Of a stretch of DNA of 64,000 nt, positions 47,617 to 55,164 are shown piece after piece (the stretch's first letter is position 1; every line of letters begins with the position of its first letter). The stretch is taken from NCBI RefSeq assembly GCF_037975245.1, contig NC_092573.1:25821265-25885264 (forward strand), in the 5' to 3' direction. The translations under genes were made by a program, and so were the position numbers. Below the pieces are notes generated by a model, which was given only the letters and a program-made list of their open reading frames with translations, made no database searches and was not told the DNA's origin. This DNA comes from Apostichopus japonicus (lineage: Eukaryota > Echinodermata > Holothuroidea > Aspidochirotida > Stichopodidae).

Positions 47617-48205
47617 TCGCGCGACCACTAAGAGATCTTACTTGAAACTGTATCTGTTACCTCAGGTGAAAAACATAAACAATAAACCATCGTTAAGTAG
47701 CTAATAATTCATTAACCCATTCGATTATAAAATAAACGGTGGTAGACACTTAGTCCTACTAACCGAACAGTAGTAGTGTTTAAATGATGCACGTTGGGCA
47801 TACTAAAAGTTAATACTTTTCCTTCCTTAGTTTAATATAAGAATAGTGCGAAGAAGCCTATTACACTCTAAAAAAGATGGGTAATATTTTCTGGGCAAAT
47901 GCTCGGTTGGGGAGTTCTTTAACAATATTGGGCAAAATCCCTGCTCTATGTGTTGACCAACTTATATTAAAACAGAATTGAGTAAACCGCTGTGCAAAGT
48001 GAATGAAATATACCCAACATTTGGTAAGCGTCCCGCCAAATCGAAAGTCACTGGTACTGACTGGGGCGACGCGCACATCTGCGACGAAAAAATGAACGTT
48101 TTGCCTATACATTTGTGTGTGTTTGCATGGACAAACACCGTACGTTACGTATCATCGCATAGCTCATACATACAGTGTAGATGACGAGTGTAGATGAAAA
48201 TATAG

Positions 48206-51200
48206 AAGATTGGCAGGCCTATCGAAGAAATCCTACAAAAATGGGGGGTTGAAGAGCTGATAGACAAGTTACAAGGTAAGAATGTGCTATTGAAGAGCAG
48301 GCTAACAAAATTACAAACCTATATTATGTTGATATGAAAATGATGTAAATATTGGTATACAAAGAGATAGCGTCAGGTAAGGTCGAAAAGCATAATGAGT
48401 AACGTTACTCGATAGGTCAAACGTAACTTAACTAGTGTAGCCTAGGTCCAGATTAGGCCTAGCTTTTGGCTATATTGTTATACTACTACTAGTAGCTGCA
48501 ACGATCGAATTGGAATTATATTGATGTTAATATTGACGAAAGACATTGGGACCTAACTTGACACCAGATAATCGTGCATGAAATTCATTAATGTACAAGT
48601 TCCAAGGGTACGTAGATAGTAGGAGTAGTGTACGTAGTACTTTTCTAGCCTACGTACTTAGCCTATGCTACTGGCCAACTAGCACAGGTTTAACGTTAGG
48701 CTATGCCAAATTTGCTCAATCGAATTTGTACAAATTAAGCTACCAAGCAAACCCTACCGTCTGACGTTAGGTCTAGTAACCTAGGGTTGTGCCCAGGAAT
48801 TTTTAAATTTAGAATTAGCGAACTGGTTGTTATTCTAGTGACAGATTGGGGAAGGGTCAAAACGAGGGGAAATGTCAACTCGAGTCAAACTCAATGTGAG
48901 AGTAGGGGGATGGAAGTCAAATTAAATTTGCTCAGTATCAGATACCAGATTATGCTACTTTTGGAGCCCTTAAAACTGACGATGTCTTTGAATATTTACT
49001 TCAAACATAACCACTTAACGTAGTTTAAGCCTGTATTACCCTAGCCAATACATTGTAACTTAAAAAAAAATGGTAAGATTGAGAACAAATCCTGTAGGCC
49101 TAGGCTATGGGCATATGAATAGGGCCAAGTTAGTTTAGTGATCACTATATGTGCACCAGTTAACTGCTTACTTGCTTGAAGCTAGCAGCCATTAAGACTA
49201 AGAGCAGCCACTAACACTGTAACAGCATTCATCATTTCATCATTGATATTGAGCTATATATGCATCAGAGTACTGTCTGCGCTTGAACTTAGTGGCCGCT
49301 AGCTTCAATGAGGCAAATCACTTGCATATAATGACAAATGCAGTATTCAGATCCAGTAACTAACGGTACGTACAGTAGGTCACATGCAAAGCTCGCCAAC
49401 GATAATAAGCTAAGCCTATGTAGGTTAACTATATATGAACTGATGCTTTAACGATGCAAACTACCACAATAATTTAGAACGTAAGATTGATTTAATACTA
49501 TACACAACATTTTAAGTGTAGAATTTCTATCAGTAATTGAGTAATATAGGTTAGATATTTGAAGTTTTCCTTGCACCAGATGGATATAGTGAACAGCGTA
49601 ATTGGCGATTTTTGATATAGTGCTGGGTGAAAATGTTCAGTGCTGGGCGGAGCCAACAGACTTAGGCACCGTACTTTATAGTGCAACTAAGTGTAATACA
49701 AGTTTACAATGTACAACACTGTAAGATGGGGCACTAATGGCAAAATATAAAGGGCATGATGGCGCAGCTTCTTTCAGCTGTGGGTTATGTCAAGCCATGC
49801 ATCAGATATACCTTGATGGCAATGAATTTAATTGTTGTCACAATTGTGCATGGTTGTATTTATTAATGTTGCAACCACTGTCATAAAAGGGGGGGGGGGT
49901 TAGGGCACTGTTCAGTCAGTCGTAATAATGAATATATACAATATAAATTAATTTTAAGGGATGTTCCTGCAAATAAATTAAAGCTGCAAACTGTGACAAG
50001 TGTTATCACTGAGGATGCTTTGCAGGTTAGACCAGAAAAATAAATTGCCCAATACCACAAACAAATTAACATGTGCTAATAGTATATGGAACTTCCTTCA
50101 AAACTGACTTCAAAGTTAAAATTTGAAAGCAAAAGCTTCCAATAGGGCAGCATCCATCAAAATCCAGTCCTATTACAGTCAAATGATTATGACTCCCGAA
50201 GCTTTCAAACTCTGCTGCCAATGCTAAGTTGTGGTTCATTGTTTTTCTTCTTTTTTTTCTCAACAGAAAATGGAATTGATGTGACTGCATTCACCTTGTT
50301 GGATGAATTAAGTATAAAAGAATTGATTCCTAAAGTCGGACTGAGACTGACATTTTTAAAGGGTTGGCGAGAAGAGGTAAGCTCTAAAGATGTCATGCAC
50401 CTGTTTCAAATGCCTTAGGACTATAGAAGGAGGCAACAAGAAACTTTTTTTCCACCTCAAGCATGTACATGGCATTGCCAATAAAAGCAGGGTGAAAGTT
50501 GTTTGCAGTCAAGGTAAATGTGTGCTAACATTTAATACATTATGTGGCTACAAAAGCTTGTAAAGACTATATCTCTATAACAATTATAATGGATTGATTA
50601 CAACAGATGCCTTGTGGTGAGTAAAGTCTGCCTGTTTCTTGGGGTAGCTATAACAAGAATAGTAACAATGAGGCATGACTTAAATTATCCTTTCTCAGTT
50701 TTAGTAGGATAGATTTCTATCATCTTTTGCAGGATAGTGGTACTGTAGGTACATATTACATATTGAGTAACATCATCCAGATGAACACCTAAAGTTGTAT
50801 ATAACAGCATTAACAAGCCTATCCAGTTCATGCAGTCAGCATACAAGAGTAAGTGCAATAAGCCCGCACAAAGCAAAAACAATTACATAGAAGTTACTTT
50901 ACAATTCATTTCTCAGCACCAGTAGCACCTGAAAATGAAGAAGAACTTGTTATGATGAATCAATGGCTTAAATAAAACAAGGAACCTGAAGACCAAGTTA
51001 CTGTTTTCATGGGGAAAACAGCTTTCTACCGCCAAAAGAGAATAAAAGAAAGTCTGGGGAGTGTTAACACCACCATTGCTGAGTTTCCGTGATTGTTGGA
51101 CCCAGGAATGGTAAAATTCTATTAAATACTTTGCTTTTTTTTTTAATGATTAATATGATTGCACCTGACACTCATTCCAGCCAAGTTAGGCATTTTCATA

Positions 51201-53409
51201 TATTTTTTTATCTTTAAAGACAGCTGGCTATAGACAAATTTGATTTGTTTTTGTAAGGCTTAAATGAAAATTGTGTATGTAAAATCTGCAGGTAATCTAT
51301 GTTCTTACACATTGAGGGGGAATAGTAAAGCAGAATGCCAAACAGTGTTCACTGATAGTTTGTTCTCATGAAACCATCGTTACCCTGGGTTACTTTATGT
51401 ATGTTGTTTGGCTGTAAAAGGTCTGAAATAATTATCATTAGTTATCATTTAATCCACAAATAATTGGGTTCCACAGTAACTATTTTCTAAGCTTTTTAAT
51501 GTGTGAGTCTTTCCATGTATAGCATGCAGCTGTTCCCAAAAAGAGTCATGTTCCACTGGTGACTTAAAAAAACTATTTCATTTTCATTTTAGATTGAGCA
51601 AGACTTTGCATTGCTGTATCCATCAAGATCAAACAAACTCTATCAAAGATTGGAGAAGGTGGCAAGAAAAGTTATTTTATACAGCCAACAGCTAAATTGG
51701 AGGGAGGTCCTAGGTATGCAGAATACAAAAATTGATGACCTCACAAAGGGTAAGCCTAAATATACAAAACAAACAGACATATGTTGACTTGTTGGTCCAT
51801 CAAATTAGATTCTCATGAGCTGTAGGTACATGAATGGTGATATTGACAGTAAAGTATGCTCACTGCTTTGTACTTAAAATACGGTTCCTGCAATTAATAG
51901 TATGCTGCCTCTCATTGGTGATTGCTGTTCAAAAATCAAGGAATAGAGCCTTTTAATTGTTGGACAATTGGAAAAACCTTTTAAATGGTTAATAATGAAG
52001 TCTAACATTGGGTTAAGTTTTAGGGGGACTCCAAGTCTGTGGTACTCTCACATCGGCAAGGCAATATTTCCATCTTTACATCAATCAGGCAATGTAAATG
52101 GCACATGCATGTCAGTGACAACCTTTTATCAGACTGTGTCTCTGTGAATCTGTCCATGCACATGCACCATTGTGTGTTGATATATGATCATATCTTGTGA
52201 GGTTGTTATCCTTAATTTATTCTTGTTAATAGAAATAGGTCACCAGCCAGAGGTCAAAATCTGCAAAGTGCCTCTTCTAGAGACTATACAAAAATGTTCA
52301 CGTAATGAATATTTGGAAACTTGGTTGTTTAACGTTACCAAGGGTTAGAATGTATACTGCTTCTCTCATTACTACAATGAAAGTTAAACAATGAAAGTGA
52401 TTCTCATAAACAGAAAGTTTTTTCATGAAGATGACAAGAGTCATTTAAGAAATTTTAAAGGGTGCCTAAATATTATATTTTGTATTCTGCAGAAATTTAA
52501 CTAGCCAGTTTTAAGGGGTGAATACTTAACTGTTTTTATCTTCACAGAAGAAACAAAGAATCTGGCCTTTTCCCTGTTAGCTATCATATTCAGAAGTGGA
52601 AGGAGTGGAAAGGGTAGAAAGGGTCACAACTCAAATGATTCAGTAAACTGCTTCATTGATGTGCAACCAGTAAGTTTTTCTACATCCCCATTTGAATGCA
52701 GGTTTGAAATAGTGACTCAAATAACTCAGACTGGGAAGCTCAGATCTCATATTTGATGTGTATATCAACCATATTCAGTGAAAGAAGTCTATCTCTCTTT
52801 TTTTTTTTTTGGGGGGGGGGGGGTCAGACGTTATTTGAGGTCACTGGGTAAAACTTTTGAAAGTTTTCTTGACAGCTCCAGTAAAATGGGGAGCTTAGAG
52901 GGATCTCAAAATTGTTGAAGACTGCTCATTTATATTTACATTTATATTTTATATATATATGTATATGTGTATATACATATATATATATATATATATATTC
53001 ATAGCTACATGGTTTTTTACATTTGTGTCATTTCATGAAATTGTGGATAACTACACTTCTTAAAATATTGCATTTTTCTTTCTTTTCATAGGAAGTGTTT
53101 GACATAGACCAATATGTAAAGACCCTCAAAGCAACAGAAACCCCACAGCTATTTGTTATGTGCAGGGGAAGTCGGATAACTCCATCACAAACTTATATCA
53201 TCATAGAAGGGAACGCACTACCTCAGCAGTCACTCATGAAAGCTATTGACGTATGCTTTAAGGCCATGTACATATTTGACATTGAATATCAACCAATGTG
53301 TAAGATTGCATGGCAGTTTTTGCAGGTTGTGATCTATGACTTCACTGAGGCAAGCATCACAAGTTCCATTCGAAATCTGCGTGCATTCATCGCATCAGAT
53401 TCAAAGTAG
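48206..53409 (+). CDS. SAMD3-like SAM-domain protein, possibly decaying
   Basis: Exons 48206-48275, 50267-50376, 51593-51749, 52548-52669 and 53092-53409 (stop TAG) join in frame to 258 residues; the start codon lies in an undetected earlier exon. The first two form a SAM domain: IEEILQKWGVEELIDKLQ, then ENGIDVTAFTLLDE and IKELIPKVGLRLTFLKGWRE. SAM domains mediate protein-protein and sometimes RNA contacts. Exon 51593 begins IEQDFALLYP. The last exon (FDIDQYVKTLKATETPQLFV, then ALPQQSLMKAIDVCFKAMYI) matches the C-terminal part of SAMD3-like proteins, whose function is unknown. A family exon at 50917-51110 has two stops; skipping it keeps the frame. Poly(A) signal at 54631. The gene lies inside the candidate element at 47864-55162. 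Confidence 0.75.
50917..51110 (+). pseudogene. SAMD3-like middle exon with two in-frame stops
   Basis: One frame reads APENEEELVMMNQWLK, stop TAA (50973-50975), NKEPEDQVTVFMGKTAFYRQ, further residues, then TTIAEFP, stop TGA (51090-51092), LLDPGM. It ends at a phase-0 donor that fits the next exon (IEQDF). Family members have EFPRLLD.PGMIEQDF here, so the TGA replaces an Arg codon, most simply CGA to TGA. Its acceptor phase (2 nt before the first codon) does not match the phase-0 donor at 50377. It is a dead or skipped exon, or a sign the whole locus is a pseudogene. Confidence 0.75.
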
Positions 53410-53804
53410 TTCTTTATTCCTAACTATTCATTGTATTTATATCATACATTACATCTTGATAGAACAAATTTAAAGTGTAAATACTGTGTAAAATTACAGA
53501 TGATTTTTCTTAACTTCCATTGTTCTATTACTTAGCTTTCATGGCTTGGCGTTCAAGGAATTTGGTGAAGTACAGTATCAGTTAACTTGGTTTCATCATT
53601 CATGGTTAAGTGTTTGCCATGTTATTTCATACTGAATCAGCCAAAAATAATTTGTTTTAATAGATTATATTCATTAACACCATCACAGTAATGTCTTACA
53701 AAATCAGTTAATATTTCGGAAAACCTGTGCATAGAGTACTAACATGACATGATGGTGATGGAAATCAGCTTTTTGTCATCTTTTAAAGCTTATCTAGACT
53801 TGTG

Positions 53805-54540
53805 CCAATGAGTGGACGAGAGTAGCATGCTACAATAGCAATGGGTGAACGAGAGAAGTATGCTACAATAGCAATGAGTGGACGAGAGTAGCATGCTACA
53901 GTAGCAATGGGTGGATGAGAGTAGCATGCTACAATAGCAGTGGGTGGAAGAGATTAGCATGCTACAATAGCAATGGGTAGACGAAAATAGCATGCTACAG
54001 TAGCAATGGGTGGATGAGAGTAGCATGCTACAATATTGCAGTGGGTGGAAGAGATTAGCATGCTACAATAGCAATGGGTAGACGAAAATAGCATGCTACA
54101 GTAGCAATGGGTGGAAGAGAGTAGCATGTTACAATAGCAATGGGTAGACGAAAATAGCATGCTACAGTAGCAATGGGTGGATGAGAGTAGCATGCTACAA
54201 TAGCAATGGGTGGATGAGAGTAGCATGCTACAATAGCAATGGGTGGATGAGAGTAGCATGCTACAATAGCAATGGGTTGACGTGAGTAGCATGCTACAAT
54301 AGCAATGGGTGGATGAGAGTAGTATGCTACAATAGCAATGGGTGGATGAGAGTAGCATGCTACAATAGCAATGGGTGGATGAGAGTAGCATGCTACAATA
54401 GCAATGGGTGGATGAGAGTAGCATGCTACAATAGCAATGGGTTGACGTGAGTAGCATGCTACAATAGCAATGGGTGGATGACAGTTACATGTTACTATGA
54501 CAATTGATTGACAGTAGTAGCATGCTACAATAGCAGTGGG
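53805..54540. repeat. 33-bp minisatellite, about 22 copies
   Basis: Unit AGTAGCATGCTACAATAGCA then ATGGGTGGATGAG. Each unit contains the perfect 10-bp palindrome TAGCATGCTA. Because 33 is a multiple of three and the unit lacks stops on -, a 167-residue frame of 11-residue repeats (MLLSSTHCYCS) appears there, but it is a by-product. The array lies in the presumed 3' UTR of the SAMD3-like gene. Confidence 0.95.
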
Positions 54541-54630
54541 ATGTGATAAGTGTATTTTTTCTTTATGATTTCATCTGTTTTATCTGCTTTAAATTTGTTT
54601 TGATATGCTGCTTCAAGAAAGTAGATGTTC

Positions 54631-54636
54631 AATAAA
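54631..54636 (+). terminator. poly(A) signal after the SAMD3-like gene
   Basis: AATAAA followed about 20 nt later by a GT-rich stretch (TGTGTTGTTAG). It would give a 3' UTR of about 1.2 kb containing the minisatellite. Confidence 0.6.
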
Positions 54637-55164
54637 TCATTCTACAATACACTGTGTTGTTAGATCTGTCTTTTTGGTTTGGTGTATGCTGTACTTGTTC
54701 ACAATCATCCAACCTTCCATGTTCATCCCACCTATTTTAAGTTATATCATTCAACATTTTTGTGTATAGTCAGTAAAAAACGGTGAAATAGTGAAATACC
54801 TGTATTGATCATTATGAATATATTGATTAACTATCCATTACCCAATAAAGGGAGAAAAACTGCTTAAATAATGTCGAAATATCGACCAATAAATAGCCCT
54901 ATGTTGCCCAGTTAGTAGTAAAGGATACCCAACCATATGATATGCGTATTCAACATTTCGCCAACAAATGATAAACATTGCCCAACAGGCCAGTTGGGTA
55001 ATTTCTTAATTACTATTTATGGGTAAAATAATATGCCCAACTATGAGTAAAAACATTACCCAGCGGCAATTGGGCAAAAAATGCTCAACAGTTGGTTGGA
55101 TACATACTTCCCCAGCGTTGGTTAAAAATTGGGCAAAAAAATTGACCAACTTTTTTAGAGTGTA

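Follow-up and report, generated by a model that had tools for sequence, protein, structure and literature searches.

The holothurian Apostichopus japonicus carries on contig NC_092573.1 (assembly GCF_037975245.1) a stretch of 64,000 nucleotides, positions 25,821,265 to 25,885,264 of the forward strand, which is referred to here as the window. At 47864-55162 of the window lies a complete copy of a DNA transposon that is transposase-deficient through an internal deletion and that encloses a gene for a SAM-domain protein. This copy very probably belongs to an animal lineage of cut-and-paste transposons related to CACTA elements (EnSpm/TRC-like), in which the SAM-domain gene is the second gene beside the transposase. 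Compared across families, the SAM gene appears to be a long-standing part of this lineage and not cargo picked up once.

The copy ends in 17-bp terminal inverted repeats that are identical at 16 of 17 positions and have TA directly outside on both sides, and CACTCTAAAAAAG occurs once per strand in the window, at 47864 and, inverted, at 55150-55162. A sequence-only reading of the window had noticed these ends and flanks and had suggested a DNA transposon carrying a gene, which is borne out by the genome. When the left and right 200-bp ends were searched against it (671.6 Mb, 35 contigs), 22 left and 32 right matches were obtained, far more than chance would give. A threshold of 95% identity left 16 ends of each kind, and every left end has a right partner on the same strand of the same contig, as expected of one element with two ends and not of separate short elements. 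All 16 right ends are at least 99% identical to that of the window, two of them being shortened, and the distance from end to end is 6.4-15.3 kb in 14 pairs, while one left end is split by about 12 kb. The terminal repeat pattern with at most two mismatches matched the genome 104 times, compared with 30 times for the reversed control. Both flanks are readable in 13 of the 16 copies (the other three were left out of the comparison because an end is truncated or mutated), and a matching 2-bp duplication is present in all 13, TA in ten and TG in three. For a TG copy at C16:5.69M, which is inserted in one copy of a local repeat, the others being without the element, a paralogous empty site was identified at C16:6010050-6010305, where the joined sequence holds a single TG. 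Set apart from the other pairs by size, the ends at C14:12085448-12142089 lie 56.6 kb apart with matching TG/TG flanks, so that this pair either encloses very large nested insertions or delimits a giant copy.

In longer copies of the window's family, an open reading frame (ORF) for a transposase begins 13 bp after SAM exon 2, within the intron that separates exons 2 and 3, and runs for 828 codons from its ATG (831 from stop to stop; L011). The frame is open at C7:10.99M and C3:18.9M, two copies with different flanks whose transposase proteins are 100% identical after rounding (1886.9 vs 1890.1 bits); the copy at C2:29.2M has an interrupted frame, and that at C8:7.57M has fragments of it. The remark in the sequence-only reading that the element lacks a recognised transposase thus holds for the deleted copy in the window and not for the type of element. 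Transposase sequence was found in four of the 16 copies. Eight transposase-less copies were read inside, seven of which share the deletion junction of the window copy and one of which has a different loss; another four were judged transposase-less from the transposase genome search (best 55 of 426 candidates scored). Since seven of eight copies have a common junction, the deleted form itself must have multiplied, which is most simply explained by mobilisation of a single deletion derivative in trans and its subsequent amplification. Two stop-ridden transposase loci, C17:16257162-16258702 and C17:25028377-25030436, are 72-90% identical to the transposase of the window's family, have no matching ends among the end matches listed, and are probably older relics.

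By profile comparison, the transposase is homologous to the Transposase_21 proteins (CACTA/EnSpm, TNP2/TNPD). A nine-member profile of the lineage (A2) was aligned with HHalign to two of the three genome proteins that score over Pfam's Transposase_21 cut-off, giving a probability of 98.6% (E 8.5e-16, 526 columns) for the first and of 97.9% (E 5e-13, 388 columns) for the second. Scored directly with PF02992, four of nine lineage members match at E 1 or better, the best with 24.4 bits (E 1.9e-5), below the cut-off of 28.6. Pfam yielded nothing useful on single exons or on the transposase of the window's family, and the family relationship was recognised only through divergent relatives. Four acidic residues (D298, D392, D474, and E481) are invariant in ten aligned transposases, and the same holds for seven Cys and His residues of zinc-finger type in the N-terminal part. 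The third acidic residue could be D474 or E481; of the D of D-x-M-H and the E, two canonical relatives (L080 and L082) retain just the former, and a third (L081) retains both. These relatives represent other Transposase_21 lineages (L080-L082, at C11:3834589, C17:15310749, and C16:1371396) with ORFs of 742-853 amino acids, and no SAM exon 5 lies within 20 kb of them among the matches listed. A PDB profile search with the transposase returned zinc-finger and FokI matches, none of them better than E 0.027, and no relatives of exon 5 or the transposase were found in viral contigs.

The SAM gene lies wholly inside the window element, as had been claimed from the sequence alone, and comprises five GT-AG exons with an open spliced frame of 257 codons. 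No in-frame ATG stands directly upstream of exon 1 in the sequence read; the phase-1 boundary of this exon is the same in the C13 relative. It is in this relative that the same segment passes the SAM_1 profile, with 23.3 bits at a cut-off of 23, and its best PDB matches are the SAM domains of ANKS6, BICC1, and ANKS3 (E 0.005-0.046). These three are cellular scaffold proteins, whose likeness to the SAM gene is confined to the SAM domain. A genome search with SAM_1 gave 30 matches, among which the C14/C19 family scores 29.4-30.9 bits. For the C-terminal domain, no relative was found when the spliced protein was compared with the PDB; the exon-5 profile hit only two receptors there, at E 0.88 and 0.97, which were taken as chance, and an AlphaFold2 model of exon 5 alone reached a mean pLDDT of 49.3 and did not enter a fold search. 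The label 'SAMD3-like', which stems from the sequence-only reading, is tentative; an N-terminal SAM domain is what the gene has in common with vertebrate SAMD3.

The association of the SAM gene with the transposase extends well beyond the window's family. SAM exon 5 was found within 20 kb at no fewer than 19 of 53 transposase loci (28-100% identity), in all 19 cases downstream on the same strand and at a distance of 4.4-6.5 kb from the transposase, compared with a mean of 0.57 and a maximum of 4 in 2000 trials of random placement, in which contigs without a given length were set to 29 Mb. The exon-5 matches used are the best 150 of 649 candidates, one of the 150 rows being dropped as overlapping, and the transposase loci stem from the 55 scored candidates, whose 62 rows were reduced to 53 loci by merging nine as pieces. 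It should be noted that the 19 loci do not represent 19 families, as four of them are copies of the window's own. Within that family, at least 15 of the 16 copies have an exon-5 match, the exception being the copy on C16. In an independent test, three of the 30 SAM_1 matches, all from one family, lie 0.53 kb downstream of a lineage transposase (random mean 0.027). Among the exon-5 matches listed, SAM exon 5 is within 20 kb of two of 59 PF02992 loci, both of this lineage; other Transposase_21 lineages therefore appear to be without the SAM exon.

Nine divergent transposase loci, four with and five without an earlier exon-5 hit, were read, and SAM exons were detected by profile at all nine, with exon 5 alone in C2 and without exon 5 in C10. 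Eight of their transposases, those included in the distance test, are 26-50% identical to that of the window's family, and the remaining one is 35% identical to it. The SAM profile seeds took segments of seven of the nine loci from the first round, so the E-values of those loci are partly self-fulfilling; C10, C5, and exon 5 of C16 were found without seeds of their own, and the SAM exon of C14 was found independently by SAM_1. The weakest find of the first round, exon 5 of C2, had an E-value of 5.4e-5, and in a control sequence of 186,606 bases no SAM-exon profile matched below E 0.1. Across nine families, the distance matrices of transposase and exon 5 correlate with r 0.87, a value reached in none of 20,000 permutations. 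Between the end of SAM exon 2 and the ATG of the transposase there are 13-82 bp in the window, C17, C13, C8, and C7 families and about 0.64 kb in C10.

Complete elements with a transposase were measured in four families and span 10.8-12.2 kb. The element at C7:2.75M (10,785 bp) has the ends CACTCTAAAAACG/CACTCTAAAAAAG, that at C8:10.89M (12,125 bp) the ends CACTCTTAAAAC/CACTCTAAAAAC, and that at C13:8.84M (12,231 bp) the ends CACGCTAAGAAC, all three with TA flanks; for the C17 element only the left end was found, flanked by TG. The first letters are CACTC in the window, C8, C7, and C17 (left only) and CACGC in C13. The expectation that SAM genes elsewhere sit between such ends thus applies to three of four divergent elements, which have both CAC(T/G)CT... 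ends with TA, and in part to the fourth. It does not extend to a tandem array at C9:12289576-12568576 (L054, L055), where at least seven matches to the SAM C-terminal exon follow on one strand about 41-52 kb apart: in two pieces of 7.0 kb and 4.5 kb that were read (95-97% mutually identical) there is no transposase and no CACTC-type end. The array is possibly a host gene or a relic.

Repeated subterminal words, also pointed out beforehand, are present in the window copy, whose terminal 2x300 bp contain TGGGCA/TGCCCA seven times, compared with 0.26 expected from the interior. Such words are enriched over the interior in four elements and vary between families, TGGGCA being frequent in the window and C13, TTGGGTCA in C8, and CCTGGT in C7. 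An unmasked interior control was spoilt by repeats, seven occurrences being not unusual there, and tandem repeats were masked before 2000 random pairs of interior 300-bp stretches were drawn. The top word count was reached in this control 34 times for the window, 281 for C13, 136 for C8, and four for C7, which gives the words good support in C7 and moderate support in the window. The SAM protein or its transposase partner may bind them.

How the two genes would work together can be proposed after maize En/Spm, in which the transposase ORF lies in an intron of the second gene and the subterminal regions hold repeated words. The lineage described here resembles it in ends that begin with CACT, in internal-deletion derivatives, and in the position of the transposase ORF within the intron of the second gene. 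In full copies, two genes on one strand lie between CACTCTAAAAAAG ends, and both proteins could be produced from one transcript by alternative splicing. The transposase would perform the cutting and joining and, supplied by full copies, would mobilise deleted copies such as that of the window in trans. The SAM protein, probably the functional counterpart of maize TNPA by analogy, would self-associate via its SAM domain, bind the ends directly or through the transposase, and either bring the two ends together or regulate the element, as TNPA does in maize. We know of no SAM domain in TNPA. That the SAM protein would thereby act as a helper of transposition is about as likely as not.

Several results weigh against a two-gene lineage of this kind. 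Among the matches listed, 34 of the 53 transposase loci have no SAM exon 5 within 20 kb. The gene order varies: in C14 and C19 the SAM half-exon (exon 2) lies 3' of the transposase, and at C5:10752600-10767599 (L050, L037) the SAM exons detected, 3 and 5, are upstream of the transposase and do not surround it. As the pairing is shared and the order varies, the pairing must be old and the arrangement must have shifted. Pfam SAM_1 (PF00536) gives no match on the window copy, and the domain call rests on relatives; nor does the transposase of the window's own family match Pfam Transposase_21, and in the genome search with PF02992 the best direct score of the lineage was 27.5 bits, under the cut-off of 28.6. 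The subterminal words exceed random interior sequence only weakly in C8 and not in C13. No empty site for the window copy was found with its flanks in the genome search. Finally, no selective constraint on the SAM exons was detected within the window's family, where 34 non-synonymous and 12 synonymous variants were counted (neutral ratio 3.09, p=0.74) and divergence is 0.0188 in SAM exons vs 0.0164 in introns. Such intron-like variation fits deletion derivatives drifting after amplification, and it also fits cargo.

One alternative is that the SAM gene, although part of the transposon, serves as a titrating regulator or self-repressor retained by deletion derivatives, and not as a helper. TNPA and deletion forms take part in regulation in plants, and it is the derivatives with the shared junction that multiplied here and, apart from the C16 copy, kept exon 5; the lack of constraint in the window's family and the long retention beside divergent transposases speak against it, and we regard repression as rather unlikely. 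A host SAM-domain gene captured once as cargo, as in a Pack-type element, and without a role in transposition, would account for the unconstrained SAM exons of the window's family and for the persistence of exon 5 in copies that have lost the transposase. A single recent capture is ruled out because SAM exons are present at all nine divergent loci with correlated distances, and exon 5 in other families has a median dN/dS of 0.44 (single pairs 0.14-1.00), a figure that stems from 31 of 210 pairs, which are not independent, among 20 chosen loci and the window, and that is lowered by the picking of high-scoring loci from the best 150. Cargo is thus very unlikely. Segmental duplication of one host locus with coincidentally inverted ends, suggested by long alignment pieces of six copies that are about 92-98% identical to the window, was rejected on account of the matched 2-bp duplications and the empty site, the more so as similarity stops at CACTC/GAGTG with different flanks beyond and ends of this type recur in other families, and its probability is close to nil. 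Equally negligible is a Tc1/mariner-like element, for which TA outside ten of 13 pairs of ends could be cited: three pairs are TG/TG, which excludes a strict TA target, and the transposase aligns by HHalign with Transposase_21 proteins.

Second or accessory proteins have been described for CACTA elements (PMC1636069, PMC4158355). The closest known system is SmTRC1, an animal TRC element for which, in the sections of DeMarco et al. (2006, PMC1636069) devoted to it, a transposase of Transposase_21 type, direct repeats of 2 bp flanking seven of 14 copies, internally deleted copies, and second spliced products likened to maize TnpA are reported. The first three of these traits are shared by the lineage of the window. 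SmTRC1 differs in ends that begin with CCC, 54-bp terminal inverted repeats, and a length of about 4.5 kb (same sections of PMC1636069), whereas the ends here begin with CACTC, the elements measure 10.8-12.2 kb, and a SAM-domain gene is present as second gene. In those sections CCC at TRC ends is offered only as a suggestion; with CACTC ends, the lineage is therefore filed as related to SmTRC1 and not within it. The portions of the schistosome element outside Transposase_21 are reported there as not detectably conserved. Plant CACTA elements, according to PMC4158355, have CACTA ends and a 3-bp duplication, unlike the CACTC (C13 CACGC) ends, which are not CACTA/CACTG, and the 2-bp duplication of the present lineage. 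Second spliced products and 2-bp repeats were thus known in animal CACTA-related elements from SmTRC1 (PMC1636069). A search of the open-access literature (titles and abstract openings) found no SAM-domain second gene and no link between the SAM domain or SAMD3 and CACTA/EnSpm or DNA transposons.

The second proteins of animal CACTA-related transposons have so far been without identity, and a SAM domain would offer a mechanism through self-association and end binding. The SAM gene may also serve as a marker for finding such elements, and where SAM-domain families are expanded in animal genomes, their members may belong to transposons and should be masked before claims on gene families are made. 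More tentatively, and with considerable doubt, a whole lineage of animal CACTA-related transposons might encode a SAM-domain TNPA counterpart as second transposition protein, in which case most of the animal genes annotated as 'SAMD3-like' would be transposon genes and the single-copy vertebrate SAMD3 would be a domesticated descendant of one; if related, SAMD3 would be a candidate domesticated transposition factor.

Features of the transposon copy and its flanks (window coordinates)
Feature	Positions	Strand	Remark
Left target-site duplication TA	47862..47863		
Left terminal inverted repeat CACTCTAAAAAAGATGG	47864..47880	+	
Left subterminal region with TGGGCA/TGGGTA words	47864..48163	+	
SAM gene exon 1, first half of SAM domain	48209..48275	+	5' boundary uncertain; GT donor at 48276
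SAM gene exon 2, second half of SAM domain	50267..50376	+	
Transposase ORF stub, first ~54 codons, zinc-finger-type Cys/His residues	50390..50553	+	full ORF starts at L011:494
Internal-deletion junction, transposase removed	50552..50553		4.6 kb vs L011, 657 -> 5252
SAM gene exon 3	51593..51749	+	
SAM gene exon 4	52548..52669	+	
SAM gene exon 5, conserved C-terminal domain	53092..53409	+	stop 53407-53409; at least 150 genome matches
33-bp minisatellite inside element, 3' of SAM gene	53806..54540		
Right subterminal region with TTGGGCAA/ACCAACT words	54863..55162	+	
Right terminal inverted repeat CACTCTAAAAAAGTTGG	55146..55162	-	
Right target-site duplication TA	55163..55164		

The 33-bp minisatellite downstream of the SAM gene shows apparent length variation among copies of the element. 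In addition, a second set of ends, TACACTCTTAAAAAGTTGG / TACACTCTTAAAACGTTGG, occurs genome-wide, and in three examples (C1:11665795-11669109, C7:4918166-4924605, and C16:18963745-18971294) these ends face each other 3.3-7.5 kb apart.

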